Shown: positions 2,753-31,480 of the stretch, one piece after another | How the letters are laid out: the number at the start of each line of letters is the position of its first letter | How positions within the stretch are numbered: position 1 is the stretch's first letter | Assembly: GCA_009785605.1 (NCBI GenBank) | Contig: WQVY01000003.1 | Span: 1 to 64,000 of the forward strand | Direction of reading: 5' to 3' | Length of the DNA: 64,000 nucleotides | Source: Defluviitaleaceae bacterium | GTDB taxonomy: Bacteria > Bacillota > Clostridia > Lachnospirales > WQUN01 | Notes under the pieces: generated by a model | What the model saw: only the letters and a program-made list of their open reading frames with translations | Databases searched by the model: none | What the model was told of the DNA's origin: nothing | Position numbers and translations under genes: made by a program

Positions 2753-4375
2753 CTAGCCTATGCGTATATAAACACCCGCAGCCGTTTTAGAATAATCTTC
2801 AGGTATTGCAAGTGTTTTGCCTTCATGTACAGCCCAATACATTGCGTATGGTAATATCCAAAAATACATACGCAGTACATAATGAGCATATTCTTCTATT
2901 AAATCGTCGCGGATATAAGGGAGTAGAAACTCGTCAGCCATCCTGGATATTTTATTTGTATATTTTTCTACAAGCGGTTGCAATAAATCTTCAAAGCTTG
3001 TTTGTATTTTTTCTATACATTCGGCCGGTATAATTGGGACCATAACTTTAAGTTTATTGTCGTCTTTAACAATAGCACCCATAGAGATGAGGTTGGCTGC
3101 TTGCGCTTCCTCTATACTGTTTAATGTGGCGGTACCATTACTGTCTATTAACTTTAATATCAGCGGCATATTAGAGGCGTTTATCATAAATTGGCTGTCC
3201 CTGTTGGAAAACGGCCTGTCGCGGAACCAATTGATATAATGCAGCTTACCATACATAGAATGATCAAATGTTTCGTGCATGTTATTTGAGCCAAATGTTT
3301 TTACTATTTTATCGCGGTTTATTACTTCGTTGGGTAAGGTAAAAGAACCTGCTAACCTATAGTCTTTGCCGTTGGTGGCTGCGACTTTACCCTGCCAATT
3401 TTTCTCGTTGTACTGTTCGGCCATTTCGCCGTATTTGATACATACAAATACCTGCAATATCCACATCAGATAGCTGTAGTCAAATGTATTACCGTAAAAA
3501 TCTTGTGACAAAATATAGTCTTTTTTCTTCAGCAATATTTCGTTTATTTCTGGCCCAATTGTTGAGTAGATTTCACCTGCCTTGTACTCCGTGTTATGCT
3601 TCACTTGTTCGGGGATTATACAAAAATCTGTAAGGTATTTGCCGCTTGCGTCTATTTTCATGGCCTTACAATTTAGTGGGTGTGTTAGTCTATCTTCGAT
3701 GTATACTGGGGCGACTCCTATCTCGCTTGCAAGCTCGTTTATGGACTTGCTTTCGTTTCGGCATGAAATAAGTATCTGGTCTATTATTAAATCATTAAGC
3801 TGGCTAAACGGTGCCATCCCGTTTCCCCATTTGCTTAGTGTTGCGGGGGCGTATGCGCTTTTTCCTGTATTATTCATGTTATTAAACTCCTTTTTTATGT
3901 TTGTTCTCGCGTCAAACAATCTACGTTTGACTGTCCCAGCAGGGATATCCAAGACCCCTGCAATGTCAGAAACTTTCATTTCTTTGAGGTAAAACATAAT
4001 AACTATTTCCCTGTGTTGAGCAGACAGGCGTGATATCGCGTAGTTGAGCTCGTGTATTTCCTCGCTTGCTAGGACACTATCTTTTGTAGAATCTTCCGAA
4101 TACAAAGCCTTGGCAATCTCGACGTTGTTTATATCCATAGTAGAAGGCGCTTTATTCCTTTTTGAAAGAAACATGCAGTATCTATTGTGAGCAAGTGCCC
4201 AAAACCACGAGTAAAAGCTGTGGACCTCATGGCCTTTGCGCAATTGTGCTAACGCCTCAACCAATATATCCTGCGCCAAGTCCTCTGCATCGGTTTTGTT
4301 GTACAGCTTCCTAAACGAGTAGAGATAGACTTTTTCTATCAATTCTTCGTTTATGATAGTTTTGTAATCCATCAT
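2753..4375 (-). CDS. Sigma-70 family (ECF-like) RNA polymerase sigma factor with long C-terminal extension
   Basis: The start at 4375 (or 4372) follows AAGAGGTAAAC. Residues 12-75 form sigma region 2 (KTDAEDLAQDILVEAL, then SWFWALAHNRY). Residues 112-163 form region 4, with LSAQHREIVIMFYL and the helix-turn-helix KVSDIAGVLDIPAGTVKRRL. About 375 further residues (165-540) have no family I can name. They open with a second helix-turn-helix-like stretch (SINELASEIGVAPVYIEDRL) and near the end hold a hydrophobic helix (RMYFWILPYAMYWAV). Known ECF factors with C-terminal extensions use them as built-in regulators, so ligand or stress sensing is inferred. No anti-sigma gene is adjacent. GAACC with a following T-run at about 4435-4445 (minus strand) resembles an ECF -35 box. 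Confidence 0.85.
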   Translation of the reverse strand: MMDYKTIINEELIEKVYLYSFRKLYNKTDAEDLAQDILVEALAQLRKGHEVHSFYSWFWALAHNRYCMFLSKRNKAPSTMDINNVEIAKALYSEDSTKDSVLASEEIHELNYAISRLSAQHREIVIMFYLKEMKVSDIAGVLDIPAGTVKRRLFDARTNIKKEFNNMNNTGKSAYAPATLSKWGNGMAPFSQLNDLIIDQILISCRNESKSINELASEIGVAPVYIEDRLTHPLNCKAMKIDASGKYLTDFCIIPEQVKHNTEYKAGEIYSTIGPEINEILLKKKDYILSQDFYGNTFDYSYLMWILQVFVCIKYGEMAEQYNEKNWQGKVAATNGKDYRLAGSFTLPNEVINRDKIVKTFGSNNMHETFDHSMYGKLHYINWFRDRPFSNRDSQFMINASNMPLILKLIDSNGTATLNSIEEAQAANLISMGAIVKDDNKLKVMVPIIPAECIEKIQTSFEDLLQPLVEKYTNKISRMADEFLLPYIRDDLIEEYAHYVLRMYFWILPYAMYWAVHEGKTLAIPEDYSKTAAGVYIRIG

Positions 4376-4488
4376 GTTTACCTCTTGAAAATCAAACCGG
4401 TTTGTTTTCATATTAATATGTATATGTATTTTGTAAAAGGTTCGGGGGGGGGTGAAAATTTTACCGTTATAACAGGCTGTCACATTTC

Positions 4489-4525
4489 TGAACCGTCCCA
4501 AGTCAAGTAGACAGAGAAAAGAGAA
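4489..4525. repeat. Left copy of a direct repeat bounding the S41-lipoprotein block
   Basis: TGAACC, about 8 variable bases, then CAAGTAGACAGAGAAAAGA. A closely related stretch recurs at 6517-6550 in the same orientation. The two copies bracket a 2-kb segment carrying a promoter, an HTH remnant and a lipoprotein gene. Confidence 0.55.
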
Positions 4526-4529
4526 AAGA

Positions 4530-4550
4530 GTTTGGCCCAATCATCAAAAC
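4530..4550. repeat. Core fragment of the MITE-like family (third copy)
   Basis: TTTGGCCCAATCATCAAAAC at 4531-4550 is identical to the core of the small elements at 10859-10939 and 62180-62288. The rest of the element is not recognisable here, so this is a fragment or a separately conserved site. Confidence 0.6.
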
Positions 4551-6663: not shown

Positions 6664-6894
6664 TTATTGTTCTTCTTCCAGCTTTTCTACCAGGGCAAGT
6701 AAAGAGGCATACGAGTTAAAATTTTCTGGTATCAATTCCTCTGCCGGGATTGCGATATCCATACGGTCATTGATTTCGGCCACCAGTGTAATAATATCAA
6801 AGGAGTCTAGCACCTTTTCGTCAACCAATGCCTGATGAGTGGCGTAGTCAACCTCTGGGTGCATTTCTTGCAAGATTTTTAGTAGTTCGCACAT
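6664..6894 (-). CDS. Acyl/aminoacyl carrier protein (DltC-like)
   Basis: A 76-residue carrier protein; AAGGAAGGAAGATAACAT precedes its ATG. The phosphopantetheine attachment serine is in VLDSFDIITLVAEI near residue 31, the DSF/DSL signature of this fold. DltC-type carriers hold an aminoacyl thioester made by the partner ligase. The gene starts 3 bases after the stop of the adenylating ligase and is the last of a seven-gene minus-strand cassette, so cytoplasmic delivery of an activated amino acid to the MBOAT protein is inferred. Acyl carriers for fatty acids usually show DSLD, so DltC-like is the better reading. Confidence 0.85.
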   Translation of the reverse strand: MCELLKILQEMHPEVDYATHQALVDEKVLDSFDIITLVAEINDRMDIAIPAEELIPENFNSYASLLALVEKLEEEQ

Positions 6895-6897
6895 ATG

Positions 6898-8412
6898 TTA
6901 TCTTCCTTCCTTATATTTATTAAGCAGCCCAACCCGGTCGAATTTACCGCCCGGCGTAAGCGGCAATGTGTCCAATGCAAAAATAGCGTAGGGCATCATA
7001 TATCGCGGCAGGGTGGCCTTTAGGTAGGCTTTAATGTCTGCCATATCAACTAAGCTCCTGGTCGTATAGTAAAGGACTATACGGCTTTTGTCCTGGTCAA
7101 ATACGGCACATGCAAGCTCTATACTTTGGTGGCGGGCGGCTATATATTCTATCTCTGCCAACTCTATCCGGTAACCCATGTGTTTTATCTGATGGTCCCT
7201 CCTGGATATGAAGTATAGCACACCATTATCGTCCCGGTAGCCGATATCGCCGGTCTTGTAAATTGTGTCTGGAAAGCAGGACAAGGGATTTTGCACAAAC
7301 ACGGCTTGTGTCTTTATAGGGTCTTTATAATACCCGAGGCTTAGACATGCCCCGCGTATACATATCTCCCCAGGTTGGTTGGCAGCTGGGGTGGCGTTAT
7401 TATCATCCAACAGTACAATATCGGTATTAGAAAACGGTTGCCCAATGGGTATTGCCTCCCCATCATCAAAAAAACGGTCGGCTACATAAAAAGTAGCAAC
7501 ACCTGTTGCCTCGGTAGGCCCATAAAAATGTACAAACCGTGCATCTGGTACCAGCTCGCGCCATTTGTTGAAATGCTTTGCCGGCAATACTTCACTGGTA
7601 AAAGCAATCGTACGCAATGTGTGGGGCACAGCCTTTTCTAAAGCCCCAAGCCCGGCAACCAACCCCAGTGCAGACGCTACCCAGCAGATTGTGTTAATAC
7701 CATGCATATTTAAATATTCTATGAGCTTAACCGGGAACATAAACAGCGATGGCGGGATGATATAAGTGGTTGCACCATACTTAAGTGTTGGGAAAATTTC
7801 TTTTAGGCAAGCGTCTAAGTACAGCGGTGACTGCATACCAAATACCGTATCCGGCCCTGCTTTTAAAACCGGTGATAGATTTTCTATATAATCAATTACA
7901 CTTTGGTGGCTTGCTACTACGCCCTTGGGTGTCCCGGTTGAGCCGGATGTGAACACTACATATAGCGGGTCAATATCTGTTGTATGCAGGCGCACACATG
8001 CCAAATCTTCATCCGAAACATGATGCTGGCATAAGTCCGTATAAAGCTGTGTTTCGATGTCCAGTCCCCATAGAGAAATTAACTCCTGTGTGGTTTCGTC
8101 GCAAATAATTAGTGGCGGTGCAGTAGTTTTTAGGATTAACTGTATACGAAAAGCTGGCATTTCTGCATCCAAAGGCACATAAAAATTGCCGCCATACGCC
8201 ACCCCTAGGAAGGCGGTTATCATGGCAGTGGATTTTTTCATGAAAACAACGATGGGTTGCTTGCGCATACCATGCGAACATAAATAAGTGCCAATAGCCC
8301 GGGATTTATGATATAGCTGGCCAAAGTTTACATCACCATCTCCATCAATAAATGCGGGTTTGCCGGCACTGTGGGTTACTGTGTGTTCTAGATATTCCAG
8401 TACATTCTTCAT
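6898..8412 (-). CDS. Amino-acid adenylating ligase (DltA / NRPS A-domain family)
   Basis: A 504-residue AMP-forming enzyme of DltA length. P-loop VVFTSGSTGTPKG, FYGPTEAT, the YKTGDIGYRDDNG hinge region and the C-terminal lysine in LTPGGKFDR are all present. It should activate an amino acid as adenylate and load it on the adjacent carrier protein. The amino-group-binding Asp is present (YLDACLKE). Two positions that line the D-alanine pocket in DltA differ: the Cys of FCGEVLP is Thr here (FTSEVLP), and the Val of PTEATVAV is Gly (PTEATGVA). A substrate other than D-Ala is therefore plausible. The start at 8412 has GGAGATTTAC before it; the upstream in-frame ATG at 8424 overlaps that site. Confidence 0.86.
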   Translation of the reverse strand: MKNVLEYLEHTVTHSAGKPAFIDGDGDVNFGQLYHKSRAIGTYLCSHGMRKQPIVVFMKKSTAMITAFLGVAYGGNFYVPLDAEMPAFRIQLILKTTAPPLIICDETTQELISLWGLDIETQLYTDLCQHHVSDEDLACVRLHTTDIDPLYVVFTSGSTGTPKGVVASHQSVIDYIENLSPVLKAGPDTVFGMQSPLYLDACLKEIFPTLKYGATTYIIPPSLFMFPVKLIEYLNMHGINTICWVASALGLVAGLGALEKAVPHTLRTIAFTSEVLPAKHFNKWRELVPDARFVHFYGPTEATGVATFYVADRFFDDGEAIPIGQPFSNTDIVLLDDNNATPAANQPGEICIRGACLSLGYYKDPIKTQAVFVQNPLSCFPDTIYKTGDIGYRDDNGVLYFISRRDHQIKHMGYRIELAEIEYIAARHQSIELACAVFDQDKSRIVLYYTTRSLVDMADIKAYLKATLPRYMMPYAIFALDTLPLTPGGKFDRVGLLNKYKEGR

Positions 8413-8442
8413 GTAAATCTCCATTCTGAGGCTTTAGCACAA

Positions 8443-9156
8443 CTATTGCATTGCCAGCGCTGCATTGGCTAGTACTTCCAATGCCTCGATGTATATATAC
8501 CCGCTGCTTTTATGTAGCAGACCAAGCTCTGTACAGCCTAGTACAATGGCTTGTGCATCTAAGTCATACAAGTCGGCAGATATTTTATCCAGCGCACATG
8601 TAGGCATATCTCCACGCTTGAGTTGATAAATAACGTCACTTAAATATTGTTGCGCTTTACTGCCAGGCAGGACTACGTCAATTCCCCGTTTAGCAAAAGC
8701 CTTATGAAACAACCGCCCATGCAACGTACCATCTGTCGCCAATAATCCTATCTTGCCAAACTCTTTATCTTGCACATACTTTGCTGTCTCGTCCATCATA
8801 TTAATAAAAGGTACAGAAACCGCACATGCCAAATCATCATAAAAAAAATGCGCTGATACGCAGGGCATGGCAATACAACCAACACCGGCTTCTTCCAGCA
8901 CTTTCGCGGCATTAAGCAATGGCCCAAGCGGGCTTGTGCTGGTTTTGCCAGTTATAAATGCGGTACGGTCTGGTATAGATGACTTGCTGTAAATTAGTAC
9001 ATCCAGGTATTCTTGCTCGGTGGTGACGGACTGGTTGTTTGTTAGCATAGAGTAAAAGCGAGCTGTAGCTTGTACCCCCATCCCGCCTACAACGCCCAGT
9101 GTACGGTTTGTTAGCTTGTTATTGGGTGTGCTTACTGGTGTAAATGTGCTGCTCAT
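8443..9156 (-). CDS. Aspartate/glutamate racemase-family protein
   Basis: A 237-residue cofactor-independent racemase-family protein. Both catalytic cysteines are visible: Cys99 in AMPCVSAH and Cys208 in VLGCTELGL. The Asn of the usual CNTAH motif is Val here, which may alter substrate recognition. The family racemises Asp, Glu or broader amino acids by a two-base thiol mechanism. The start overlaps the transglutaminase stop by four bases (ATGA), so the two are translationally coupled, and the ligase gene follows 30 bases later. Supplying a D-amino acid to that ligase is the natural inference. The first 17 residues are a non-conserved extension; an internal start is possible. Confidence 0.88.
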   Translation of the reverse strand: MSSTFTPVSTPNNKLTNRTLGVVGGMGVQATARFYSMLTNNQSVTTEQEYLDVLIYSKSSIPDRTAFITGKTSTSPLGPLLNAAKVLEEAGVGCIAMPCVSAHFFYDDLACAVSVPFINMMDETAKYVQDKEFGKIGLLATDGTLHGRLFHKAFAKRGIDVVLPGSKAQQYLSDVIYQLKRGDMPTCALDKISADLYDLDAQAIVLGCTELGLLHKSSGYIYIEALEVLANAALAMQ

Positions 9157-10820
9157 TGTTCTATCTCCGGGTACAGTTCTGGGTAGTAGGTATAGTAGTC
9201 CCGCATCCCCAAGTAGCTTAATATCAGCTCTGTACTGCGCCGCGCTTGCGAAGATGTAAACATAAAACGGTTGAGCCTTTGACCAAAAATTGGCCGCAGT
9301 GGTGTCGTGTCAAAATGGTGCCATCCCAACCCGTCGGGGTTGATAAGATTCCAGGAATGCCTTGTAAATGTGCCTTCTATTCTTTGGATATGCAAGTTGG
9401 GTATCCCGGCTTGGGTTAGCAACATCTCGGATACAGAATAAAATACAAAACAATCCCCACGCCTGTTGCGCAAAGCCTGATACGCCCCGTCGTACATAGA
9501 TGTACGGCTGACATCTGCTGCATAGGCAATGTTATTGGATATCCAGTCAAAGATAGCCTGGGCTTGCTCTACTTGGGTCATACCTTCGTGCAAGATGCTT
9601 TCAAGTACCATATCAGCCATGTTGCGTACCCTGTCGGGGTCAACTTCCAGTACATGTACATAAACCAATACCTCTGTCCTTAGGCCCCATGCGTCCTGTG
9701 TATAATATATAGCCGTATAAGTCCCAAGTTCGCGGATATTTACATCTGTACTGTCTACAGAAAAAGCAAGTGGCCTACCAAAGGCATCCATTGCACTTAT
9801 ACCTCGCCTAAAAATTATGGGGCTGCCAACTTGGACATATAAGTCCTGAGCGCCAACTATCTGCGGCGGCACAATATTAGGAAGTACATACAACTGCGCC
9901 AAATATACAGCGCTATTACCAAAATAGTCCGTAAACATAATTTCGACATCTTGCGCGCCGGGAGCAAAAACATATGGCTCATGTACAAATTCAATTGCCA
10001 CAACAGGCGATATGTCAAAATAATCTATGATAAAATCGTCAGGCAAAATGTCTTGGCCCATTGGTATTATTATGTTATCAAGCGTTGCGGTTGGCGGGGT
10101 GGTATCCAATACCCTAACTTGCGAATAAAAAAACACACCATTAATAGAAACATTAACGGTATGCTCCCCAACCCCCAATACCCCCGCTGGCAAACCATCA
10201 TGGATGGTAATATCTATTACTGTGCCGGGGGTGATATACCCTATATGCACAAACTCCTGGGGTGAAATATATGTACCTGCTTCAACTTCTACATACATTA
10301 GCGGTACCAGTACATACAGCGGCATTGTAGCTTCACTGACCCGCCTACCGTTTCGTAAAATCAGAGCCACTTCATGCCTACCGCTTAACATAAAGTCTAT
10401 GGCATATGGGTCACGAAACTCCGCATAAACCCCTTCCATTTCCATATTATTAGAAACAAAAGCAGCAGGGGTAACGGGTACACCCTGTAGTGTAGCTACA
10501 CTGTTTAATCCGTTTTCTGGTATATCTAGTGCAAGTGTTAAATTATTAACCAGCAAAAATACCAAAAACCCGATTAATATAACCGCCCCAAAACCAACTA
10601 AGTACGCGCCTCGTTTGCGCTTGTTGGCCTTAGCTTCGGGGTTGTAATCTAAAGCGGGTTGGGATTTTTCTGGTTTGGTTTCAGCTTGTATGTGAAAGCT
10701 ATTTGACCCTAGCACTTGTGTGCCGGTAGTAGAAACAACGGCTTTTGACTTTAGATTCTTGTTGCGTATCCTTCTTTTGGATGCACGTTTTAGTATATAT
10801 CTTTGCGAGTTTTTAGCCAC
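9153..10820 (-). CDS. Membrane-anchored transglutaminase-like protein
   Basis: A GTG start at 10820 follows AGAGGGGGATGCACGA. The 555 residues open with a basic cytoplasmic tail (KRASKRRIRNKNLK), then one membrane segment (AYLVGFGAVILIGFLVFLLV, about residues 72-95), placing the rest outside. The middle looks like repeated beta-sandwich (Ig-like) domains with PPTATL and PPQIVG boundaries. The C-terminal transglutaminase core carries the triad: Cys in RRGDCFVFYS, His in FTRHSWNL and Asp in WHHFDTTPL. Members cross-link, hydrolyse or transamidate amide bonds. Its place between envelope-modification genes suggests action on the cell surface. The substrate is unknown. Confidence 0.84.
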   Translation of the reverse strand: MAKNSQRYILKRASKRRIRNKNLKSKAVVSTTGTQVLGSNSFHIQAETKPEKSQPALDYNPEAKANKRKRGAYLVGFGAVILIGFLVFLLVNNLTLALDIPENGLNSVATLQGVPVTPAAFVSNNMEMEGVYAEFRDPYAIDFMLSGRHEVALILRNGRRVSEATMPLYVLVPLMYVEVEAGTYISPQEFVHIGYITPGTVIDITIHDGLPAGVLGVGEHTVNVSINGVFFYSQVRVLDTTPPTATLDNIIIPMGQDILPDDFIIDYFDISPVVAIEFVHEPYVFAPGAQDVEIMFTDYFGNSAVYLAQLYVLPNIVPPQIVGAQDLYVQVGSPIIFRRGISAMDAFGRPLAFSVDSTDVNIRELGTYTAIYYTQDAWGLRTEVLVYVHVLEVDPDRVRNMADMVLESILHEGMTQVEQAQAIFDWISNNIAYAADVSRTSMYDGAYQALRNRRGDCFVFYSVSEMLLTQAGIPNLHIQRIEGTFTRHSWNLINPDGLGWHHFDTTPLRPIFGQRLNRFMFTSSQARRSTELILSYLGMRDYYTYYPELYPEIEQ

Positions 10821-10858
10821 TCGTGCATCCCCCTCTAGAGTTAGTACAATTCACATTT

Positions 10859-10939
10859 AGAAGCTGTGTCCATATCCGCAGTTTAAAATAATCGCTTTTG
10901 GCCCAATCATCAAAACCGCCGGCCTGTATAGCGCTTCTT
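10859..10939. repeat. MITE-like small inverted-repeat element, copy A
   Basis: Starts AGAAGCTGTGTCCATATCCG and ends near GCGCTTCT, an imperfect terminal inversion. It holds a core running from CGCTTTTGG to CAAAAC at 10893-10916, identical over 24 bases to 62221-62244. It fills most of the 117-base gap between the lipoprotein and transglutaminase genes and touches the lipoprotein stop codon. Confidence 0.6.
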
Positions 10940-11558
10940 AATACATGATCAACCCATAAATTATCCCGGTTACCATATCATCCTCAATAAAAAACGACAG
11001 TGTTGTACGGTCAATTGTAAAGGTAAACATGTTTGTGTCTTGTTCGTAGTTGCTGCCATATGCAGCCAGTACATCGTCTAGGCTATTGCCAAGGGTAATA
11101 CCTTCACTTGTTGTTATGCTGTCATCTAAGAAACTGATTGTGTGCACCCTGTCAAGGTCACCGTCAGGATATGTGTGGATTTGTATTCCAGGGAAACCGA
11201 ATATACGGTCTATACCATCAAAGGCACAGCTTGGGGCTTCGAATATCCCAAGTGGCTCACCAAGCAGTGTCAATAGGTAGGCCATGTCTTGGTCCATTTG
11301 TATTGTTACGCTGTTGTATATTAGTGTAAAGCCAAAAGCCAGCGTATGTGCTGCATCGGCTTCGTTATCATCATATGAGCCAGGCTCATCGTAGTCGCTT
11401 GTATTTTGGTTGTATGTTATAGCATCGTATGCACTAATATAGTCCTCTGTTTCGTCTTGCTGGTTTGGTACTATCTCTGGCTCTGTAGCCGGTGACCCGC
11501 ATGCGGCCAATATTGCAACTGCTATTAATAAAAATACACTAGTAGTTAGTATTTTCAT
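10938..11558 (-). CDS. Putative lipoprotein of unknown function
   Basis: The ATG at 11558 follows AAAGGATATACC. Residues 1-20 are a lipoprotein signal ending LAACG with Cys20 as the lipidation site. An acidic, low-complexity linker follows (to about residue 80), then a compact C-terminal domain with GITLGNSLDDVLAAYG and a beta-rich end. I do not recognise the family; the domain faintly resembles small SmpA/BamE-type or PepSY-like folds, which is only an impression. The context (inside the Dlt-like cassette, between the SGNH protein and the transglutaminase) suggests an accessory envelope role. Confidence 0.75.
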   Translation of the reverse strand: MKILTTSVFLLIAVAILAACGSPATEPEIVPNQQDETEDYISAYDAITYNQNTSDYDEPGSYDDNEADAAHTLAFGFTLIYNSVTIQMDQDMAYLLTLLGEPLGIFEAPSCAFDGIDRIFGFPGIQIHTYPDGDLDRVHTISFLDDSITTSEGITLGNSLDDVLAAYGSNYEQDTNMFTFTIDRTTLSFFIEDDMVTGIIYGLIMY

Positions 11559-11612
11559 GGTATATCCTTTCTGTGATATATTTTCGTTCTTATAACTCAT
11601 TGTTTATTTTTG

Positions 11613-12674
11613 TTAGTTTATTAGGAAGTTTATGATCCGCCCGTAAGTTGATATTTCTGCTTGCTGTCTTTCGATAATCCTATGATATAGCTCACTTTTG
11701 TTATTCCACGCAGCGGCCGTATCCGACTCGTTGCGGCGGTCAGGCAAGTCAAAATGTTCGAGTAAAATTTCACCAAAAAAGCGTGCTAGTTTTTCTGCGC
11801 CAAAAACGTTCAAATGCAGCCCAGCGTTAAACGTATCTGTATCAAAATCTAGCCCCATAGCCTCAATATACTCTAAGAAGTTTATATAAAGCAAGTTGTT
11901 TCTTTGCGCAAAGTCAACCATTTGCTCATCCCACTGGGCGTGCCAGTGTGGGTACAATGTTGGTGCTTTAACCAAAACAAGATTAATATCATTGTGCGCA
12001 GCCAATTGAACCATGCGGTCCAAATAATAATATGCCGTATCGCCAAACTGGAAATTGGCCCTAGGTAACGGCGCAGGGATAAACCCCGCAGGTACAACAT
12101 CGCTACGGATCATAAACCCGTTTATAGAAACCCTGGGACTGCGAAAGAAATATCTAAAATCTTCGCCGGATATATCCCGCCAGCGGTCCTTGTAGCGGAA
12201 AAAGGGAAGGAAATAAGACAACCAGCTTTCGTCATATAAACGTGAAGCTGATATAGCACTAAATTTGGCACGCGACCAACGCATCCCGTCCAAGGTTAGC
12301 CGGTTGTATGGTTCATATTGCGGCTCGTTATACTGCATGGCTAAGACATTAAATACTACAACATCAGGTGTCTCAAACCGCAATGTATCATGAAATAAGT
12401 AATATGACTGCCATATCAGTTGCTGGGGGCTACCCCGCAAGAAAGACGTAATACCAAACTCATCCCACAATGTAATGGGCGAAAAATTAGCGTAAACCTC
12501 GCAATCCCCAATAAATACAACATTGTGATCAAAGTTTGATGAGTAATATTCCCTAATAAGCCCGCCTTCCAGTACTACAGTAGCATACTTAGGCACAAGT
12601 AGGCGCTGCACAACAAAAAACACTAACACAAATGCAATAATAGAAGAAAATATTTTTACCCATCGCATATACAT
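11613..12674 (-). CDS. DltD/AlgJ-like SGNH-fold protein, membrane-anchored
   Basis: 353 residues with one N-terminal membrane anchor (residues 7-24) and an outside domain. The first SGNH block is VVFIGDCEVYANFSPI, where Cys58 occupies the position of the usual nucleophilic Ser (GDS/GSS). The C-terminal block NAGLHLNVFGAEKLA supplies the Asp/His-type end of the fold. DltD and AlgJ/AlgX partners work beside an MBOAT transferase in D-alanylation or O-acetylation of surface polymers, and this gene starts 11 bases after the MBOAT stop. Whether it is catalytic through Cys or is only a binding partner cannot be read from sequence. Confidence 0.8.
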   Translation of the reverse strand: MYMRWVKIFSSIIAFVLVFFVVQRLLVPKYATVVLEGGLIREYYSSNFDHNVVFIGDCEVYANFSPITLWDEFGITSFLRGSPQQLIWQSYYLFHDTLRFETPDVVVFNVLAMQYNEPQYEPYNRLTLDGMRWSRAKFSAISASRLYDESWLSYFLPFFRYKDRWRDISGEDFRYFFRSPRVSINGFMIRSDVVPAGFIPAPLPRANFQFGDTAYYYLDRMVQLAAHNDINLVLVKAPTLYPHWHAQWDEQMVDFAQRNNLLYINFLEYIEAMGLDFDTDTFNAGLHLNVFGAEKLARFFGEILLEHFDLPDRRNESDTAAAWNNKSELYHRIIERQQAEISTYGRIINFLIN

Positions 12675-12685
12675 GACAAACCGCC

Positions 12686-14275
12686 TTAAAACTGATTATA
12701 AATAAACTGCCTGGCATCATAACCGTGCCCATATGCCCCTAGAATCAACACTGTAAACAAAATCGCACCCACAACTCCGTAGCGCACAGGCCACGCAAAG
12801 GTAGCCCATTTATCCCTAAAATCTATACCACCGCGTCCCAGCCAGCTCAACCAAAACAGCACCAGTAGTCCAATACCGGCACTTACATAGTCAGATATAG
12901 GCAAAGTAAGCTCAGAAATATTGCGGGATATAAAGCCAGATAAATCAAACTCGGTAATAACAGAAAGCATTAACCTAAAAGCATTCATAACTCCGGGATA
13001 TATGTCAAACGAGCGTATCATGTTCATCAACCAAAAAGTGCGGAATATTTGAAAAATACGATAAAACTTTTTCTCACCCAAAGAAGGAAACACTTTGTGA
13101 AACCGCTCATACAGCGGCGCAAGCTCCAAAGAAACCATAATAACTATCCCGTTTGCCAGCCCCCATGCAACAAAATTCCATGTCGCACCATGCCAAAAAC
13201 CCGTCAAAAACCAAGTCCAAAGCAGTGTGATATGTACCGGAAGCCGCTTGCCAATACCATCGCCAAAAAACCTGCGGCTAAACTTAGAAAACCGCAACAT
13301 GGACTTGCCTACAGACACAGGATAAAAAACATAATCCCTAAACCATGTATACATAGTTATATGCCAGCGCTGCCAATATTCTTGTGTAGAGCGGGAGTAG
13401 AAAGGCCTATTAAAGTTTTCTGCTAAGCGTATGCCAAAAATCTCTGCTATGCCTATAGTAATATCCAGCCCACCAGTAAAATCGGCAAACAAAATTATTG
13501 CGTACAATAAAATACTAAAAAGGTAAAACGCGCCACGAAACTCATCTGGTGCCTCTATCAATACAAGCAATGCCGGCCACAACCTGTCCGCAATGACCAG
13601 TTTCTTAAAAAAGCCAATTAGTATACGTTGGGCAGCACGTGTAAACCCATGACGGTTAACAGGCGTGCCGCTGTAAAGGGTTTGCGAAAGGTCATCAAAC
13701 CGGCTTATTGGCCCCTGTATGACTTGTGGGAAAAACGAAACAAAAAGTGCCAGCTTAAATGGGTTTGTAAGAGGGGTAGTTTTTTCCCGGTATACGTCAA
13801 TGATATAACCCACTGTTTGGAAGGTGTAAAAAGATATCCCCATGGGCAGGGCTAGATGCATAAAACCAAACCGCCTGCCTGAGCCAATAAGCCCCAGCAA
13901 TGAGTTTGCGTTTCCTATTACAAAGTCCGTATATTTTGCAATGGCCAACAGCCCAAGCGTAACCAGCAAGCACGCCACAAACCACCGCTTGCAAGCGGCT
14001 TTTGCTTTTGCTCTAATGGCCTTGCGTGCGGTCTTGTCTACTGTGTCTGCTACGGCGTTGTCTCTTGCATTGCGCAATAGCCGGATACGTGTTGTGCAGA
14101 TATATGTACATACTATTGTAGCCGTGATATAAAATAAAAAAGATGGCCCCGCGAAGCCATAAAAAGTCATAGATGCTACCAATAACACAAACCAACGATG
14201 CCTTTGTGGGAAGACTCGATACAGTATTAAAACAATCGCCATAAATGCCACAAATGCCGATGATGTAAAAAGCAT
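12686..14275 (-). CDS. MBOAT-family O-acyltransferase (DltB/AlgI-like)
   Basis: 529 residues with many hydrophobic segments. Family landmarks are LALPMGISFYTFQTVGYIIDVYR, SFFPQVIQGPISRF, YWQRWHITMYTWFRDYVFYP and the catalytic-His motif TGFWHGATWNF. MBOAT proteins move an activated acyl or aminoacyl group across the membrane to an outside polymer. Being first in the cassette and next to the SGNH protein, carrier protein and ligase makes a DltB-type role the best inference. It is longer than classical DltB (about 400 residues) and nearer to AlgI length, so acetyl transfer remains an alternative. Confidence 0.9.
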   Translation of the reverse strand: MLFTSSAFVAFMAIVLILYRVFPQRHRWFVLLVASMTFYGFAGPSFLFYITATIVCTYICTTRIRLLRNARDNAVADTVDKTARKAIRAKAKAACKRWFVACLLVTLGLLAIAKYTDFVIGNANSLLGLIGSGRRFGFMHLALPMGISFYTFQTVGYIIDVYREKTTPLTNPFKLALFVSFFPQVIQGPISRFDDLSQTLYSGTPVNRHGFTRAAQRILIGFFKKLVIADRLWPALLVLIEAPDEFRGAFYLFSILLYAIILFADFTGGLDITIGIAEIFGIRLAENFNRPFYSRSTQEYWQRWHITMYTWFRDYVFYPVSVGKSMLRFSKFSRRFFGDGIGKRLPVHITLLWTWFLTGFWHGATWNFVAWGLANGIVIMVSLELAPLYERFHKVFPSLGEKKFYRIFQIFRTFWLMNMIRSFDIYPGVMNAFRLMLSVITEFDLSGFISRNISELTLPISDYVSAGIGLLVLFWLSWLGRGGIDFRDKWATFAWPVRYGVVGAILFTVLILGAYGHGYDARQFIYNQF

Positions 14276-14463: not shown

Positions 14464-14514
14464 TAGCTGGTGATGTATCGCGAACAAACACGAAATGTAT
14501 CGAAAATAATTTCA

Positions 14515-14550
14515 AAAGAGGCTATTGTGTATAATTACAACAGCCTCTTT
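14515..14550 (-). terminator. Rho-independent terminator downstream of dacA (bidirectional shape)
   Basis: Arms AAAGAGGCTATTGT (14515-14528) and ACAACAGCCTCTTT (14537-14550) with an 8-base loop. It is 37 bases past the carboxypeptidase stop and separates that gene from the Dlt-like cassette on the same strand. Confidence 0.8.
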
Positions 14551-14587
14551 CTTTTGGTGATATAATCCAAGAGAAGGGATGATTATA

Positions 14588-16288
14588 TTATTTATATCTA
14601 TATGACCCGTAGTACCGTATTCGCCTGTTGCCTTTTAAGACCTTGCGCATCCGGCGTTTGCGACTAGTAATAATAAAAAATACCGAAATTAATATTGTAA
14701 GGACAGATACCGCAACAGGTGTAACAACTGTAAGCAAAAACTCATTGGCCCATATTGGGGTAGGGTAGGCAGTCAAACTTGGATACCCCATTGGCGGTGA
14801 TGCATACTGCATCGGCCCTGTTCTTTCGCTTCCGCCGGCAGCATGACGGTCATCATGGGTACTAGCTGGTAAGCTAAGCACAAGGTTTTGGGCAATAAGA
14901 TTAAGCTCCCCTGCGCGCAAATTTTGGATATATACCACAACTTGCCCCACGATATCGCCGGCCAACACCGGCGGTGCAATACGTTCTGGTAAAGAAAGCT
15001 CGTATCTTAGTTCGCGTATATCAAAGTCTGCCGGCAGCTTAAAATGCAGGTCATCGTCGGCTTGTACAGCCACATAGCCAATGTTTAGCGGTCTGCCATC
15101 TATATCTTGGTAGACGGGTACCCTGCGTGTATATATACCAGATTCAAATACCAGCCGTTCTTCAAAAGGCATAGAAAACCCAAAAGACATAAGTGCCAAT
15201 GTGTCCCTAAAAGTACCACCACCCTCGCTGTTGAGGGTTACAATTATTAGGCGGCGGCCATCTCTTACTGCATAGGTTACAAGTGTGTGCCGTGCTGCAT
15301 GTGTCCAGCCGGTTTTGCCGCCTACAACCCATTCGTTAAAATATGACCCGGCTTGGATTAAGCGGTTTGTGTTTAATAGCGGGCGCGAGTAAGGTTGGCG
15401 CTCTGTTGGTGGGATACTGTATCTTAGAGTGCTTATGACTTCTACAAATACCGGGTGGTTTACGGCTTCCCGCATTATAAGTGCCATGTCATATGCTGTG
15501 GTGATGTGCATAGTGCCATGCAAGCCGCTGGGGTTTTCGAAGTTGGTGTTAGTGGCCCCAAGTGACTCTGCCCGGCGGTTCATAAGGTCTACAAACTCGT
15601 AGACTGTACCTGCTACATGTTCGGCAAGTGCAATAGATACCTCGTTGGCAGATGATAGCATTAGGCCATACAGCGCCTGCATTACAGTCAAAGTCTCGCC
15701 TACATCCATGGCTATATGGCTGGAGTTGCGCGGGATAGAAAACACTGCATTATGGGAAAACTCGATACGTTCGGATAAATCGTGTACATGCTCTAGTACA
15801 AGCAAAGCAGTCATGACCTTGGTCACGCTTGCCGGGAAATGTGCCGTGTTGTGGTCACTTCCGTACAATACCAGGCCAGTGTCTGCATCCATAATAATTG
15901 TTGCGGCCGATGTGTATCGCGGCGGCGGTATGACTGGTGGCGATGGCGGGGGCTCGAAACTCACCGCTTCTTCTTGCAGTAAGCTGTCGCCAGTGGCATA
16001 TATTGGCATGTAGCCGGCACTTGTATGGAGGTCTTCTATTGTTGCTGTGGCAAAATGGTCACGGACTGGGGTTGTATCGGGTTCTTGCATGTAGTTGTCT
16101 GCTTCGTAATAATCCGCTTCGTAGTAATCGTATTCTGTGCCATAATCATGATAGTCGTAGTTGTAATGATGATCATAATCGTCGTCATAATCATCATAAT
16201 AGTCTTCGGATGGCGTGTAGTCGTTAGCATAAACCGTAAGTGGCAACACTAGGGCCAAACATAATAAAAGTGCTGATATTTTTCTCAT
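14588..16288 (-). CDS. dacA: D-alanyl-D-alanine carboxypeptidase (S11/DacA family) with Asp/Tyr-rich segment
   Basis: The ATG at 16288 follows AAAGGACTTAAT; the 566-residue product has a signal peptide (to about residue 21) and a C-terminal membrane helix (TVVTPVAVSVLTILISVFFI) with a basic tail. Active-site motifs are SVTK in FPASVTKVM, SAN in LSSANEVS and KTG in VGGKTGWTH. The enzyme trims the terminal D-Ala of peptidoglycan stems outside the membrane. Residues 29-66 are almost only Asp, Tyr, His, Glu and Asn, which is unusual. The gene is divergent from comEA with only 39 bases between starts. Confidence 0.92.
   Translation of the reverse strand: MRKISALLLCLALVLPLTVYANDYTPSEDYYDDYDDDYDHHYNYDYHDYGTEYDYYEADYYEADNYMQEPDTTPVRDHFATATIEDLHTSAGYMPIYATGDSLLQEEAVSFEPPPSPPVIPPPRYTSAATIIMDADTGLVLYGSDHNTAHFPASVTKVMTALLVLEHVHDLSERIEFSHNAVFSIPRNSSHIAMDVGETLTVMQALYGLMLSSANEVSIALAEHVAGTVYEFVDLMNRRAESLGATNTNFENPSGLHGTMHITTAYDMALIMREAVNHPVFVEVISTLRYSIPPTERQPYSRPLLNTNRLIQAGSYFNEWVVGGKTGWTHAARHTLVTYAVRDGRRLIIVTLNSEGGGTFRDTLALMSFGFSMPFEERLVFESGIYTRRVPVYQDIDGRPLNIGYVAVQADDDLHFKLPADFDIRELRYELSLPERIAPPVLAGDIVGQVVVYIQNLRAGELNLIAQNLVLSLPASTHDDRHAAGGSERTGPMQYASPPMGYPSLTAYPTPIWANEFLLTVVTPVAVSVLTILISVFFIITSRKRRMRKVLKGNRRIRYYGSYRYK
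16091..16204 (-). repeat. Low-complexity tract coding the Asp/Tyr-rich segment of dacA
   Basis: Runs of GAT/GAC, TAT/TAC and CAT codons produce a near-microsatellite. It encodes residues 29-66 of the carboxypeptidase. Confidence 0.7.
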
Positions 16289-16327
16289 ATTAAGTCCTTT
16301 CGTATATATTTTAGGATGTGATAATCC

Positions 16328-16987
16328 ATGGATTTTGTTAAACGATACGCATATGTCTTTTTGGGTGTGCTTTGCGCACTGGCATTGGGTGGGCTGTTTA
16401 TAGTAAACAGCAACAGGCCGTCTGGTGTAATGGATTTGGGGCAAAACATAAACGAGCCAAGACTAGAATCAACCCCACCGCCCCAGGAACCCCAAGCAGA
16501 GCCAGAGATAAACAATGTCGTACCAACCGAGCCCGATACAATAATGGTGCATATAGTAGGTGCCGTGTACTCGCCGGGCGTATTCGAGGTCCCATATGGC
16601 TCGCGTGTCAACGATGTGTTGTACCTGGCTGGCGGCCATACCTACGAAGCAGACCTGGCACTAATAAACCTTGCAGCCTTTGTACATGATGCCATGCAAA
16701 TACGTATCCCCGTTGTAGGTGACCCAATGCAAGTGCTACCGGGCGACCAGCCAAGCGCAGGAACCACCACATCAGGCACCAACAGTGATGGCCTTATTAA
16801 TATAAATCTTGCCAGTTTTACAGAGCTTCAAACCTTGCCTGGTATAGGCCCTGTAATGGCCCAAAGTATCATAGACTATAGGGAATCAAATAACGGTTTT
16901 AGCCGTATAGAGGATTTGCTTAATGTCTCGGGTATAGGCCCTGCTAGATTTGAAAACATAAGAGAAAGAATTACTATAGAGAGGTGA
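16328..16987 (+). CDS. comEA: ComEA-type DNA-binding competence protein
   Basis: 219 residues: an N-terminal membrane anchor (about residues 8-28), a Pro-rich linker, a SLBB domain (IMVHIVGAVYSPGVFEVP) and a C-terminal helix-hairpin-helix pair (INLASFTELQTLPGIGPVMA and LLNVSGIGPARFENI). This is the ComEA layout; the protein binds incoming duplex DNA outside the membrane for the ComEC channel. comEC lies four genes downstream in the same run, separated by two-component genes, which is not the classical order. The ribosome binding site (AGGATGTG) is modest. Confidence 0.92.
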   Translation: MDFVKRYAYVFLGVLCALALGGLFIVNSNRPSGVMDLGQNINEPRLESTPPPQEPQAEPEINNVVPTEPDTIMVHIVGAVYSPGVFEVPYGSRVNDVLYLAGGHTYEADLALINLAAFVHDAMQIRIPVVGDPMQVLPGDQPSAGTTTSGTNSDGLININLASFTELQTLPGIGPVMAQSIIDYRESNNGFSRIEDLLNVSGIGPARFENIRERITIER

Positions 16988-27403: not shown

Positions 27404-27721
27404 CTATGAAAATGCGCTTATTTTTAGCATTTTTTCTGTGTCTTGTGTTGGGCGCGCTATTATGTGCTTGGATAGCACACCGCCTAGGCTTGTTGCGGCT
27501 TTTTCCCCTGCTTCTAGTGCAGCTTTTATATCCGCGACACTACCGCGCAGCTTTACCAGTACCAACAGTGGGATTTCTAGAGTGTCTGCCTTGTCTGGTT
27601 TGTTTTTGTCGAAGGACTCTATTGTGACATTGGCGGCCTTGCATGCTGCGTCTGCTGCTGCAAATGCTGTAACCAGCCCGTACACTTCTAGCAGGCCTAC
27701 TGCCTGGCCGGCGCTACTCAT
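27404..27721 (-). CDS. BMC-H-family shell protein with insertion
   Basis: 105 residues. [26 protein letters not shown] and [22 protein letters not shown] mark the BMC fold. A charged insert ([14 protein letters not shown]) of about 14 residues lies before the second half, at the edge of the pore-facing region. It starts 8 bases inside the end of the dehydrogenase gene and follows AAGGTGGCAG. First of four single-domain shell genes. Confidence 0.9.
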
Positions 27722-28916
27722 TTATAACTGCCACCTTAATCCCCTCCATGCGGAGGTTTGTTTGTAGTGCTTGGTCAATTTGTGTAAGCGGATATTTGTG
27801 AGTTATAAGTTTCTCAAGTGGCAACCCTATGGCCTTGGCCCGCTTCATGAAGTCAAATGTCGTAGCATAGTCCCTTAATGTGTACACCCATGAGCCTACT
27901 ACAGTAATTTCTTTTTTGCATATGTCGTGATGGGGGTTTATGGGTGCATCGCCGTTGTCTACAAAAAAGCCCAACTCGCATAGCCCACCGCCACGGCGTA
28001 TAAACTTCCAAACTGCCGCATGAGCCGCGGGCGAACCGGTGCATTGGAATGCAAAATCTGCAAGTTTGCCAGATGTGGCTGTTGTAATGGCTGCCAATAC
28101 GGCATCCGCACTGTTATAGCGCTTTATGTTGACTGTTTCTGTAGCGCCTAAGTCACGTGCAAAGTCCAGCCTTTTGTCTTCGCCGTCTACAGCCACTATG
28201 TTGTGGATACCCATGGTGCGCAGCACCGCAATCAACAACAGGCCAATAGGGCCGCAACCTTGTACCAACACCCGACTGTTAAAGCGTAGTAGGTTGGTTT
28301 TTTTGGCTTGCTCTACTGCATGTATTACAACCGCTGCCGGCTCTACCAACAAGCGCAACTCTAGGTTAAGGTCATTGACAACAAAGAACGATGAACCGCC
28401 CCGTATCATAAGATAGTCTGCAAACCAGCCATTAAAATGCACATCGTCGTCCGGTAACAGCCCGTAAACAGATGATGTATCGGACAAGTTTAGCTTGTTC
28501 ATGTCCATCATAGCTATATCCGCGTCATCGTCGAACATCACGCTGGTCACGACTTTGTCGCCCAGTTTTACTGGATTGCCGGCGCTGTCTTGGGTGACGT
28601 TTTTGCCCATTTTTATGATAGTGCCGCTTCCTTCGTGGCCCAGCACAACCGGGATTAGACCAAACGGGTCTTTTTTGTACTCGTGAGCATCTGTGCCGCA
28701 TACCCCACAGCCTTCAATTTTGACCAATATCTCATTGTCGCCTGGGGTGGGGATTGGGTAGTGCTGGATTTCAAACTTTTCTTTTGCCGTAAGCATAGCT
28801 ACCCGGCCTGTAGTAGGGGTGGGCTTAGAGCTGGGGAGGGTAGGGGTGGCAGTGGCAGTCATTTCGCTTAGGACTTGTTGTACAATTTTTTCGATGTTGA
28901 CTGTGTTTATTTCCAT
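27714..28916 (-). CDS. Zinc-type (MDR) alcohol dehydrogenase with N-terminal encapsulation helix
   Basis: 400 residues. Residues 6-19 (VNIEKIVQQVLSEM) form an amphipathic helix followed by a Thr/Pro linker, the hallmark of microcompartment cargo. The MDR core has GCGVCGTDAHEY (catalytic zinc Cys), VLGHEGSGT and the NAD-binding VQGCGPIGLLLIAV. The four-Cys structural zinc lobe appears absent. Other Pdu operons use an iron-type PduQ to make propanol; here this enzyme could reduce propionaldehyde or lactaldehyde and recycle NADH inside. Substrate is inferred from context only. Confidence 0.88.
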   Translation of the reverse strand: MEINTVNIEKIVQQVLSEMTATATPTLPSSKPTPTTGRVAMLTAKEKFEIQHYPIPTPGDNEILVKIEGCGVCGTDAHEYKKDPFGLIPVVLGHEGSGTIIKMGKNVTQDSAGNPVKLGDKVVTSVMFDDDADIAMMDMNKLNLSDTSSVYGLLPDDDVHFNGWFADYLMIRGGSSFFVVNDLNLELRLLVEPAAVVIHAVEQAKKTNLLRFNSRVLVQGCGPIGLLLIAVLRTMGIHNIVAVDGEDKRLDFARDLGATETVNIKRYNSADAVLAAITTATSGKLADFAFQCTGSPAAHAAVWKFIRRGGGLCELGFFVDNGDAPINPHHDICKKEITVVGSWVYTLRDYATTFDFMKRAKAIGLPLEKLITHKYPLTQIDQALQTNLRMEGIKVAVINE

Positions 28917-28954
28917 GGTATCACCTCATTTATTCGTTTTAAGATGGCTTTATT

Positions 28955-30379
28955 TTACCTGATGCATAGGCTATCACCCATCACACAGCGCCGGCTTTTT
29001 GTAAATGTCCTGGCGCTTGTAAGCCCCTCGCCGGTGCGGCTGGCTATTGTAAAAGAGCAAAAACCCTCGCCACCAAAGCCTAGTGCCGCGTAAGACGGTG
29101 CATTTTTTACAAAAATGGCAGTGTCTGCTTCCTGGCCCAAGCGGGTTAGGTTGTCTACATTTTTAGAATGCATATGCACAGAGTGTCTGTGGCCCTGCTC
29201 TAGCTTTACGGCAATGCGTATGCCCTCGGCAACATCTGTAGCACGCACAATGCCCAAGATTGGCATCATAAGTTCTTCACGTATTAATATGTGATCTTCG
29301 TCGCCTTCGAAAATGATGCACTTTATTTCATCGCTAGTATTGGTGGTTATATTAATCATTTTTAGTAGTTCTGTTGCGCTTTTGCCTACGCAGTTGCGGT
29401 TGAGGCGTACTTGGTTGCCATTGTGTTCTAAAACAGTCATACACAACTTTTCTACTTCGTGGGGCTTGGCTAGATAGCAGCCGTTTTGCTTTAAATAATG
29501 TATCAGCTCGTCTGCTATTTTGGTGGTAGCTATTATCCCTTTTTCGGCAATGCAAGGTAGGTTGTTATCAAACGTTGCACCTGCAACTATATCTACCGCG
29601 GCTTGTTTTATGTCTGCTGTATCGTCTACCAAAACAGGGGGGTTGCCGGCACCGGCACCTATAGCGCGCTTGCCGGATTTAAGCGCGGCCGTAACCACAC
29701 CCGGCCCACCGGTTACAACCAGGAGTTGTATGTCAGTGTGTTTAAACAAGATATTGCCGGTTTCTTGGGTAGGATGGGACGTAGAAACAGCGATATTGTC
29801 CGGCCCACCTGCTTCAAAAGAGGCCTGGTTAATAAGATGCACTGCATAATTTGATGACCTTACCGCCGCTGGGTGCGGGTTAAACACAACCGTGTTGCCC
29901 GCGGCAAGCATCCCTATAGTGTTGCATAGTACTGTTTCGCTGGGGTTGGTACAGGGGGTTATTGCCCCTATAACCCCAAAGGGCCCGCGTTCTACCAATG
30001 TCAGGCCGCTATCACCAGAGAAGGCTAATGTATTTATATCCTCTGTGCCTGGGGTTTTTGTGGCTAGTAGTTTGTGTTTGGCACGCTTGTGGTCAGCGTT
30101 GCCCATACCAGTCTCTGCTACGGCCATATCTGATAGTATGCCAGCGTTTTCTATTGTTTTTTTGCGGATATTGGCAATAATTTTTTCACGGGTGGCCATG
30201 GATAGGCGGGCTACTTGTTTTTGTGCATGTGCAGCTTGGGCTATTGCGGTTTCCATGTTTGGGAAAATGCCGTACTCTGCAGGGTGGGGTTGTGACACGG
30301 TCTCGAGCTGCGTTTGTGAGACATTAAGCTCTTTTATTACATCGCTTACTATGCGTGATATAAGGTCAGCTTGTTGCAA
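28955..30379 (-). CDS. pduP: CoA-acylating propionaldehyde dehydrogenase (PduP)
   Basis: 474 residues from a TTG start at 30379, behind GGAAGGAGCACCCCCA; no ATG is available there. Residues 4-17 (ADLISRIVSDVIKELN) form the N-terminal encapsulation helix known from PduP. The ALDH core shows ITPCTNPSETVLCNTIGML, NTVVFNPHP and the catalytic Cys in FDNNLPCIAEKG. It turns propionaldehyde, CoA and NAD into propionyl-CoA. PduO lies upstream and the zinc-type dehydrogenase downstream. Confidence 0.94.
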   Translation of the reverse strand: MQQADLISRIVSDVIKELNVSQTQLETVSQPHPAEYGIFPNMETAIAQAAHAQKQVARLSMATREKIIANIRKKTIENAGILSDMAVAETGMGNADHKRAKHKLLATKTPGTEDINTLAFSGDSGLTLVERGPFGVIGAITPCTNPSETVLCNTIGMLAAGNTVVFNPHPAAVRSSNYAVHLINQASFEAGGPDNIAVSTSHPTQETGNILFKHTDIQLLVVTGGPGVVTAALKSGKRAIGAGAGNPPVLVDDTADIKQAAVDIVAGATFDNNLPCIAEKGIIATTKIADELIHYLKQNGCYLAKPHEVEKLCMTVLEHNGNQVRLNRNCVGKSATELLKMINITTNTSDEIKCIIFEGDEDHILIREELMMPILGIVRATDVAEGIRIAVKLEQGHRHSVHMHSKNVDNLTRLGQEADTAIFVKNAPSYAALGFGGEGFCSFTIASRTGEGLTSARTFTKSRRCVMGDSLCIR

Positions 30380-30481
30380 TGGGGGTGCTCCTTCCCAGTA
30401 AAAATCGTGTAAAATGCAGCAAAAATTTGCAAAACGGCTTAAATATAGCACAATATTAAAGGATCGCTTATTACAAAAGTA

Positions 30482-31480
30482 TCAAAACCGGGCTGCTGCT
30501 GCCAGTTCGTGGTCTTGAGCTGCTGTGCCACCACTTACACCCACGGCACCAACGATATTACCCTGCTGGTTATATAGCGGTATGCCGCCGCCAATTGGTA
30601 GGATTTTGCCATCGCCTATAGCCTCTAAGCCATAAAACTGCTGGCCTGGTTGTACTAGTTGGCTAAGGTCTGCTGTGGACATTTTTAGCGCGGCGGCGGT
30701 GTAGGCTTTCGCGAGCGCTGCTTCGTAGCTTACCAGCAGTGCATTATCCATAACATGAACGGCTACTGGGTTGCCAGCGGCATTTACACAGGCGGCTACA
30801 ATGGATAGGTCTAACTCACATGCTTTGTGTTCGATTATCTCTAATATGGTTTTGGCTTGGGCTAGGTTTATGTCATTGGTGCTACATGTTGTGCTTGTTT
30901 TGGTTTTATTAAGCGCATCGCTTACGGCCTGTGTTACTGCTTGCTCAAAATCCGCATAGCGGGCTTTTATATATAAGAAGTCGGATAACCGATTGATATA
31001 TGCCAGTGTTGCTTTGGCGTAGCCAGACGATTCTGCTATTTGTGTCAGTTTAGTCTCTGCTCGTCTTGCTATGGCTCTTGCCAGGTCAAGGTTGGCTGAT
31101 TTGGGGTTTGCACCGTAAGTCACGAAGGATTTTGCTGGCGGCATTTTAGAGCTTATAGCGTTTATACCTGATTCTAAAATTGCTACCTCGTCTTCGAAAA
31201 AGTCGTCCCATCCGGTGCTAGAAGACTTGTCTTTCCATGAGTGAGCCGGTGGTTTTTCTGCAGTTGATATTAGTGATAATACTGTCATGATGTTTTTTTG
31301 TATTTTTTCGTAATCTGCTATTGACTCGACTTGTGATGCTTGGCTCTTTATTATGCCAATATGCGCGTTTAACTCGTCAAGCGCGGCCATGGCTTGGACA
31401 ATGGGGTGATGTTTTGGGATAGGGTTGCCGTTTTGTAGCATGGTTTTGCCGTTATCACCTGTTCTTGTGTAGATACTCAT
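30482..31480 (-). CDS. pduO: PduO: cob(I)alamin adenosyltransferase fused to HbpS-like domain
   Basis: 332 residues. The N-terminal half is a PduO-type ATP:cob(I)alamin adenosyltransferase (TRTGDNGKT, ARAIARRAETKL, AYINRLSDFLYIKARY). The C-terminal half (from about 190) is a DUF336/HbpS-like domain (VAACVNAAGNPVAVHVMD, GGGIPLYNQQGNIVGAVGVSGG). It makes the adenosylcobalamin needed by the diol dehydratase. The ATG at 31480 overlaps the reactivase small-subunit stop by four bases and follows AAAGGTGG. Confidence 0.93.
   Translation of the reverse strand: MSIYTRTGDNGKTMLQNGNPIPKHHPIVQAMAALDELNAHIGIIKSQASQVESIADYEKIQKNIMTVLSLISTAEKPPAHSWKDKSSSTGWDDFFEDEVAILESGINAISSKMPPAKSFVTYGANPKSANLDLARAIARRAETKLTQIAESSGYAKATLAYINRLSDFLYIKARYADFEQAVTQAVSDALNKTKTSTTCSTNDINLAQAKTILEIIEHKACELDLSIVAACVNAAGNPVAVHVMDNALLVSYEAALAKAYTAAALKMSTADLSQLVQPGQQFYGLEAIGDGKILPIGGGIPLYNQQGNIVGAVGVSGGTAAQDHELAAAARF

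Follow-up and report, generated by a model that had tools for sequence, protein, structure and literature searches.

Which amino acid would a Dlt-like gene set handle when it carries a racemase of its own, and how would that amino acid reach the cell envelope? The question is raised by a cassette of seven genes in contig WQVY01000003.1 of Defluviitaleaceae bacterium, the first 64,000 nucleotides of which were analyzed here (the window). With somewhat better than even confidence, we regard the cassette as an MBOAT-SGNH aminoacylation system that depends on a carrier protein and handles an acidic amino acid. Its seven intact open reading frames lie on the minus strand, head to tail from 14275 down to 6664, and are given below in the direction of transcription.

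12686..14275, minus strand: MBOAT acyltransferase, 529 amino acids (aa), DltB-like core with extra C-terminal helices (PF03062; PDB matches to DltB)
11613..12674, minus strand: predicted SGNH/DltD-like extracellular transferase, 353 aa, one N-terminal transmembrane (TM) helix, Cys58 in GDC (AlphaFold2 model)
10938..11600, minus strand: lipoprotein, 220 aa as called, probable start Met15 (11558), lipobox Cys34 (sequence and fold likeness)
9153..10820, minus strand: transglutaminase-like protein (TG), 555 aa, C-terminal core Cys457-His488-Asp504 (PF01841)
8443..9156, minus strand: two-cysteine racemase of the aspartate/glutamate/cysteate type, 237 aa, with Cys99, Cys208, Arg64 and Lys180 (PF01177, TIGR00035)
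6898..8424, minus strand: stand-alone amino-acid adenylating ligase, 508 aa, DltA-like architecture, pocket DAKCATFGV-K (AMP-binding; pocket alignment)
6664..6894, minus strand: carrier protein, 76 aa, phosphopantetheine Ser31 in a DSF motif (PF00550)

The gaps between these genes are, in the same order, 11, 54, 117, -4, 18 and 3 nt, where the value of 54 assumes that the lipoprotein starts at codon 15 and the negative value is a four-base overlap of the TG and racemase genes. The MBOAT (PF03062, 47 bits), the TG (Transglut_core, 39 bits) and the carrier (PP-binding PF00550, 21.9 bits) score above the Pfam cut-offs; the racemase and the ligase score 122 bits with Asp_Glu_race and 211 bits with AMP-binding. 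Alignments showed that the catalytic residues of the MBOAT, TG, racemase, ligase and carrier are intact. An earlier note, made from the DNA sequence, had listed the same seven genes on one strand and called them a Dlt-like envelope aminoacylation cassette. The list is borne out by the intact reading frames and family matches, and the likeness to Dlt by the gene classes and intact residues. Overlooked there were the cysteine at the SGNH nucleophile position, the hexapeptide FIYNQF of the MBOAT and the rearranged gene order.

The gene set recurs widely in the Clostridia, the class of the window's genome. A ligase of this broad kind was found in 112 of the 392 genomes of the order that were searched. 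We examined 67 neighborhoods around such ligases together with 36 loci from an SGNH profile search of class genomes, and 66 loci, that of the window included, are of the cassette type (row L016 was left out as not cassette-type). All seven genes are present in 33 of the 66 and six of the seven in many more; the TG occurs in nearly all and the racemase in 41. The SGNH profile scored at least 471 bits in 49 of 391 sampled class genomes, the next score being 203 bits. The earlier note would have dropped its proposal for a neighborhood confined to this strain; by both counts it is conserved beyond it, and its recurrence in dozens of genomes is far beyond chance. The commoner gene order is TG-racemase-ligase-carrier-MBOAT-SGNH-lipoprotein, and the window holds a rearranged form in which the MBOAT-SGNH-lipoprotein half comes first. 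The ligase tree groups the cassette ligases in a single clade, separate from DltA (support 100/99), and the presence and absence of the racemase requires at least six changes on this tree. Canonical DltA is rare in the order, detected in 7 of 385 of its genomes at a relaxed threshold, five of them over the curated cut-off. A phylum sample of 398 genomes returned three matches, namely the genome of the window and two of its order that were already known, and in plasmids the SGNH protein had one match, 26% identical. One cassette locus (L113) lies in a metagenome-assembled genome labeled Gastranaerophilales, which may reflect misbinning or transfer. No paper describing the cassette was found in literature searches whose coverage excluded most subscription papers.

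Inspection of the ligase indicated that it does not look like an enzyme of the D-Ala type. It scores 247 bits on the DltA model TIGR01734 (cut-off 560 bits). Its carrier scores 20.4 bits on the DltC model TIGR01688 (cut-off 52.35 bits) and has the phosphopantetheine Ser, which is conserved in 58 of 58 cassette carriers. The nine pocket positions were read by alignment to a segment of the phenylalanine domain of GrsA, numbered consistently at every code position. The pocket DAKCAGLGM is shared by 48 of 55 cassette ligases; all begin with D-A-(K/R)-C, with Lys in 54 and Arg in one. In the window copy, Thr, Phe and Val stand in place of the Gly, Leu and Met of nearly all the others, and these three changes may narrow the pocket. 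The six canonical DltA copies found in the order all have DLMVLCTVA, from which the window pocket differs at eight of nine positions: a near-invariant Lys replaces Met, and the DltA Cys, which DltA structures link to D-Ala choice, is absent. The view of the earlier note that the ligase is not strictly D-Ala specific thus finds computational support in a pocket without the DltA residues. The pocket Lys suggests an acidic side chain; the same position holds Lys in known Glu-activating domains (DAKDLGVVDK).

The racemase points in the same direction. It exceeds the cut-off of TIGR00035 (173.6 versus 93.1 bits), its best PDB match is the aspartate racemase of P. horikoshii (1jfl, 6e-38), and it falls short of the glutamate racemase model TIGR00067 (MurI; 23 versus 147 bits). 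Cys99, Cys208, Arg64 and Lys180 are kept in all 41 copies, and the last two align with Arg48 and Lys164 of 1jfl, which have a role in substrate binding there. At the 41 loci with a racemase, its gene overlaps or adjoins that of the ligase. Of the dedicated two-cysteine racemase put forward in the earlier note, the aspartate type stands, every key residue being present; an obligatory role does not, as 25 of the 66 loci lack the gene, and we describe it as a common, not obligatory, member of the cassette. No other PF01177 member was found in its genome, which is about 90% complete. We ruled out that it serves as the glutamate racemase of the cell: of 38 family genomes, 32 have a separate MurI above the cut-off, among them both other members of the genus, so that the missing MurI of this genome is most likely an assembly loss. 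At two other loci (L216 and L218), racemase and carrier genes are present with no ligase gene between them.

In two genera an asparagine synthetase (443 bits, cut-off 267) lies within the cassette (L044:3531-5369 and L050:4981-6822; 73% identical to each other). Candidates in L229 and L237 (E about 1e-5) were ruled out, being PurF-like amidotransferases. The substrate with the best support is an acidic amino acid, because the racemase has both Cys residues and the Arg/Lys pair of aspartate racemase, and because asparagine synthetase occurs in the cassettes of two relatives. We place D-Asp as first choice and D-Glu second, with cysteate as a further candidate. A parallel is offered by the D-Asp peptidoglycan route of RacD, AslA/Aslfm and AsnH, where the aspartate racemase gene racD also adjoins the gene that activates its product, that of the D-Asp ligase, and where AsnH, an asparagine synthase, is responsible for the amidation of D-Asp in the lactococcal wall (PMC4155827). 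That route uses a cytoplasmic ATP-grasp ligase on wall precursors, whereas the cassette would use adenylation, a carrier and membrane transfer.

The best PDB matches of the MBOAT are DltB (6bug and 8jem), and its score on the DltB model TIGR04091 is 149 bits (cut-off 375). It ends in the acyl-shuttle hexapeptide FIYNQF (Phe524-Phe529, with Tyr526). The F-x-Y-x-x-F motif is found in 58 of 58 cassette MBOATs, as are His362, Phe524, Tyr526 and Phe529, and C-terminal FXYXXF is missing from the canonical DltB proteins of the order. In both Dlt and PatAB, the MBOAT passes the acyl group to the Tyr of an FXYXXF motif and then to the catalytic Ser of an SGNH partner; the C-terminal acyl-Tyr shuttle has been demonstrated for PatA and described for DltX, and MBOAT-SGNH pathways other than Dlt are stated to be without a carrier protein (PMC12148441). 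The cassette and its sister clusters, described below, unite by sequence a fused shuttle motif with a predicted carrier-protein donor.

The SGNH protein has no match in Pfam, NCBIfam or the PDB sequences, and its profile gave only chance matches against the last. Its AlphaFold2 model (pLDDT 84) is matched by Foldseek to GDSL/SGNH hydrolases including PatB, which upholds the SGNH/DltD-like label of the earlier note. In this model, Cys58 directly follows strand 52-57, at the nucleophile elbow. A Cys occupies the position of the catalytic Ser in 62 of 62 cassette proteins, whereas Ser is kept in all 19 sister-cluster proteins that align with a residue at this position. The SGNH gene adjoins the MBOAT gene in most loci. 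A thioester is expected at Cys58, and the product could be either an ester or an amide.

The TG has a basic cytoplasmic N-terminus, one TM helix, Ig-like domains and a C-terminal transglutaminase core (PDB matches to Ig-like and transglutaminase proteins), with the Cys-His-Asp triad intact in 64 of 64 aligned copies. The lipoprotein is modeled as a two-repeat fold with weak likeness to YjgB/DUF4309 and BLIP-like proteins. Both accompany the Cys-bearing SGNH protein even where ligase, carrier or MBOAT are not adjacent, and the three therefore look like an extracellular core; acceptor handling would be the likeliest role of the TG and lipoprotein. Several loci have two to four TG-like genes. At four loci of one genus (L233, L235, L237 and L239), the SGNH (Cys), lipoprotein and several TG-like genes lie beside a family-2 glycosyltransferase-like gene, with rplM/rpsI-like genes alongside in at least two of the four. 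Most of the genomes concerned are without any cassette-type ligase.

By analogy with Dlt and PatAB, we propose the following order of transfer. The racemase would make D-aspartate (most likely) or D-glutamate in the cytoplasm, and the ligase would adenylate the acidic amino acid and join it to the holo-carrier through a thioester. The aminoacyl group would then cross the membrane by way of the MBOAT (His362), whose own FIYNQF would receive it at Tyr526 and pass it on to the SGNH protein, giving a second thioester at Cys58. From Cys58 the group would move to an extracellular acceptor of the cell envelope, on or with which the lipoprotein and TG probably act. We infer the envelope acceptor, possibly a wall polymer that is decorated, from other MBOAT-SGNH systems.

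The cassette shares with Dlt (DltA, B, C, D and X) a stand-alone adenylating ligase, a carrier, an MBOAT with a conserved His, an SGNH partner with one TM helix and an FXYXXF acyl-shuttle motif at the membrane surface. It differs in that the motif is on the MBOAT itself and not on a separate DltX, in the Cys nucleophile where DltD has Ser, in the ligase pocket, and in the addition of a racemase, a lipoprotein and a TG. The PatA/PatB and AlgI/AlgJ-type O-acetyltransferases also pair an SGNH partner with an MBOAT that has two extra C-terminal helices ending in FXYXXF (PMC12148441), whereas their donor is acetyl-CoA in place of an aminoacyl carrier protein and their SGNH nucleophile is Ser. The cassette would work like a Dlt/PatAB relay and is a variant member of the broad MBOAT-SGNH group. 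It is not placed in the Dlt family because the ligase, MBOAT and carrier fall below the Dlt model cut-offs and the defining residues are lacking, and it is a variant and not a plain MBOAT-SGNH member because of Cys58 at the position of the nucleophile Ser.

Several points weigh against this assignment. All of it was obtained by computation. The pocket Lys is suggestive and no proof of an acidic side chain, and it gives no information on D versus L. In three relatives, Asp stands in place of the SGNH His (287). Some clades (L233-L239) keep the SGNH protein, lipoprotein and TG with no ligase, carrier or MBOAT adjacent. The racemase scores slightly higher on a cysteate model than on the general one (183 versus 174 bits). 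Besides its absence from 25 loci, 14 racemase-less genomes held an unlinked racemase of the same type in six cases (one in pieces), a weak match in one and none in seven, some of these assemblies being incomplete. In such genomes either the D-amino acid comes from another route or the ligase takes the L form too.

The last observation leads to the best of the alternatives, itself unlikely, in which the substrate is L-Glu or L-Asp and the racemase is accessory, for example by supplying D-Asp for another wall step or by regulating the substrate. It would account for the racemase-less loci, about half of the corresponding genomes tested having no close racemase anywhere, for their unchanged ligase pockets, and for sister clusters that have the same pocket Lys with a decarboxylase-like or GNAT gene instead. 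It is countered by the 41 racemases beside or overlapping the ligase gene and by the unlinked relatives kept in several racemase-less genomes; D-amino acids can also be obtained from transaminases or uptake.

Somewhat more doubtful is a function other than polymer decoration, in which the SGNH protein and then TG-like enzymes attach amino acids or proteins to the envelope by covalent amide links. The invariant Cys nucleophile of both enzymes and the suitability of thioesters for transfer to amines favor it, as do the loci with multiple TG-like genes. Against it, the acceptor is hypothetical, TG-like folds are often proteases or otherwise employed, and the Cys may be a plain substitute for Ser in an ester-forming transferase. 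A related proposal, to which we give a similarly small chance, is that the Cys-thioester transferase makes amide links that place an acidic D-amino acid on amine-bearing envelope components, after which the TG cross-links or anchors surface proteins. If true, envelope aminoacylation/acylation would have a third class beside D-alanylation and O-acetylation.

Another acidic or acid-like substrate in place of Asp or Glu, such as cysteate, appears improbable. The model of cysteate racemase CuyB (NF052483) matches all 15 racemases tested, with a near miss for the window copy (183.4 versus a cut-off of 190 bits), but it is a close relative of the aspartate racemase models and cannot tell the two types apart here. 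The asparagine synthetase of two cassettes would suit a carboxylate, Asp or another, and not a sulfonate, and no sulfonate metabolism genes were seen adjoining the cassette. Least probable is an ordinary dlt D-alanylation system that has drifted, with a racemase unrelated to the substrate: it would share the four functional classes of DltABCD and explain the DltB matches of the MBOAT, but the ligase, carrier and MBOAT lie far under the Dlt cut-offs, Lys replaces Met and the DltA Cys is gone in almost all pockets, the tree splits the ligases from DltA with full support, and alanine needs no two-cysteine Asp/Glu-type racemase.

Sister Dlt-like clusters of the order, for which we know of no name, have a ligase, carrier, MBOAT with C-terminal shuttle and SGNH protein, and many of their ligases have the pocket Lys. 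Unlike the cassette, they keep the SGNH Ser, no racemase or TG was seen in them, and many carry a PLP-decarboxylase-like (~400 aa) or GNAT (263 aa) gene between ligase and carrier (L056-L058, L064, L065, L067, L071, L073, L079, L090 and L094). The pockets read DVKxxSLCN or similar in the former clusters and DSKDxxIVD in the latter. As the Lys is common to them, acidic substrates may be general in this Dlt-like clade. Together with the pocket Lys, the added genes suggest that acidic aminoacyl-carriers would lose a carboxyl group, with GABA or beta-alanine as possible products, or be N-acylated ahead of export.

Through D-alanylation, Gram-positive surfaces lose part of their negative charge and become able to withstand cationic peptides. 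A related machine for an acidic amino acid would have the reverse effect or give rise to an attachment chemistry of a new kind. The class that hosts the cassette includes many gut and rumen bacteria, and about one in eight of its sampled genomes is positive. The switch from Ser to Cys and the shuttle fused to a carrier-fed MBOAT offer a mutagenesis-ready handle on the choice of donor and bond type in MBOAT-SGNH systems.

The genome has 2.6 Mb in 134 contigs and one MBOAT. Canonical DltA and a TagF-type polymerase (PF04464) were not found in it. As it has one LtaS-like sulfatase protein and PF04464 was not found, a glycerol-phosphate polymer can only be put forward as a possible acceptor. The gene 3' of the cassette encodes an S41 peptidase on the opposite strand. 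Upstream, an S11 D,D-carboxypeptidase was ruled out as a cassette member by its absence near the cassettes of close relatives and by a strong terminator-like hairpin in between:

14514..14551, minus strand: terminator-like hairpin, 15 pairs, between the upstream D,D-carboxypeptidase gene and the cassette (consensus match only)

An S11-like gene occupies the place of the lipoprotein in three genomes of another family. The window has two S11-type D,D-carboxypeptidases (14588-16444 and 48205-49467), and a copper-amine-oxidase N1-like domain is found on the second of these and on an N-acetylmuramoyl-L-alanine amidase (60043-62175). Elsewhere in the window (27714-38049 and 49490-51394), genes for a coenzyme-B12 diol dehydratase large subunit, a reactivase, a cobalamin adenosyltransferase, aldehyde/alcohol dehydrogenases, a class II aldolase and an L-fucose isomerase look like a set for the use of fucose via 1,2-propanediol. 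A sigma-70/ECF-like protein (2753-4540, minus strand; 595 aa as called) has a long C-terminal extension of an unfamiliar kind.

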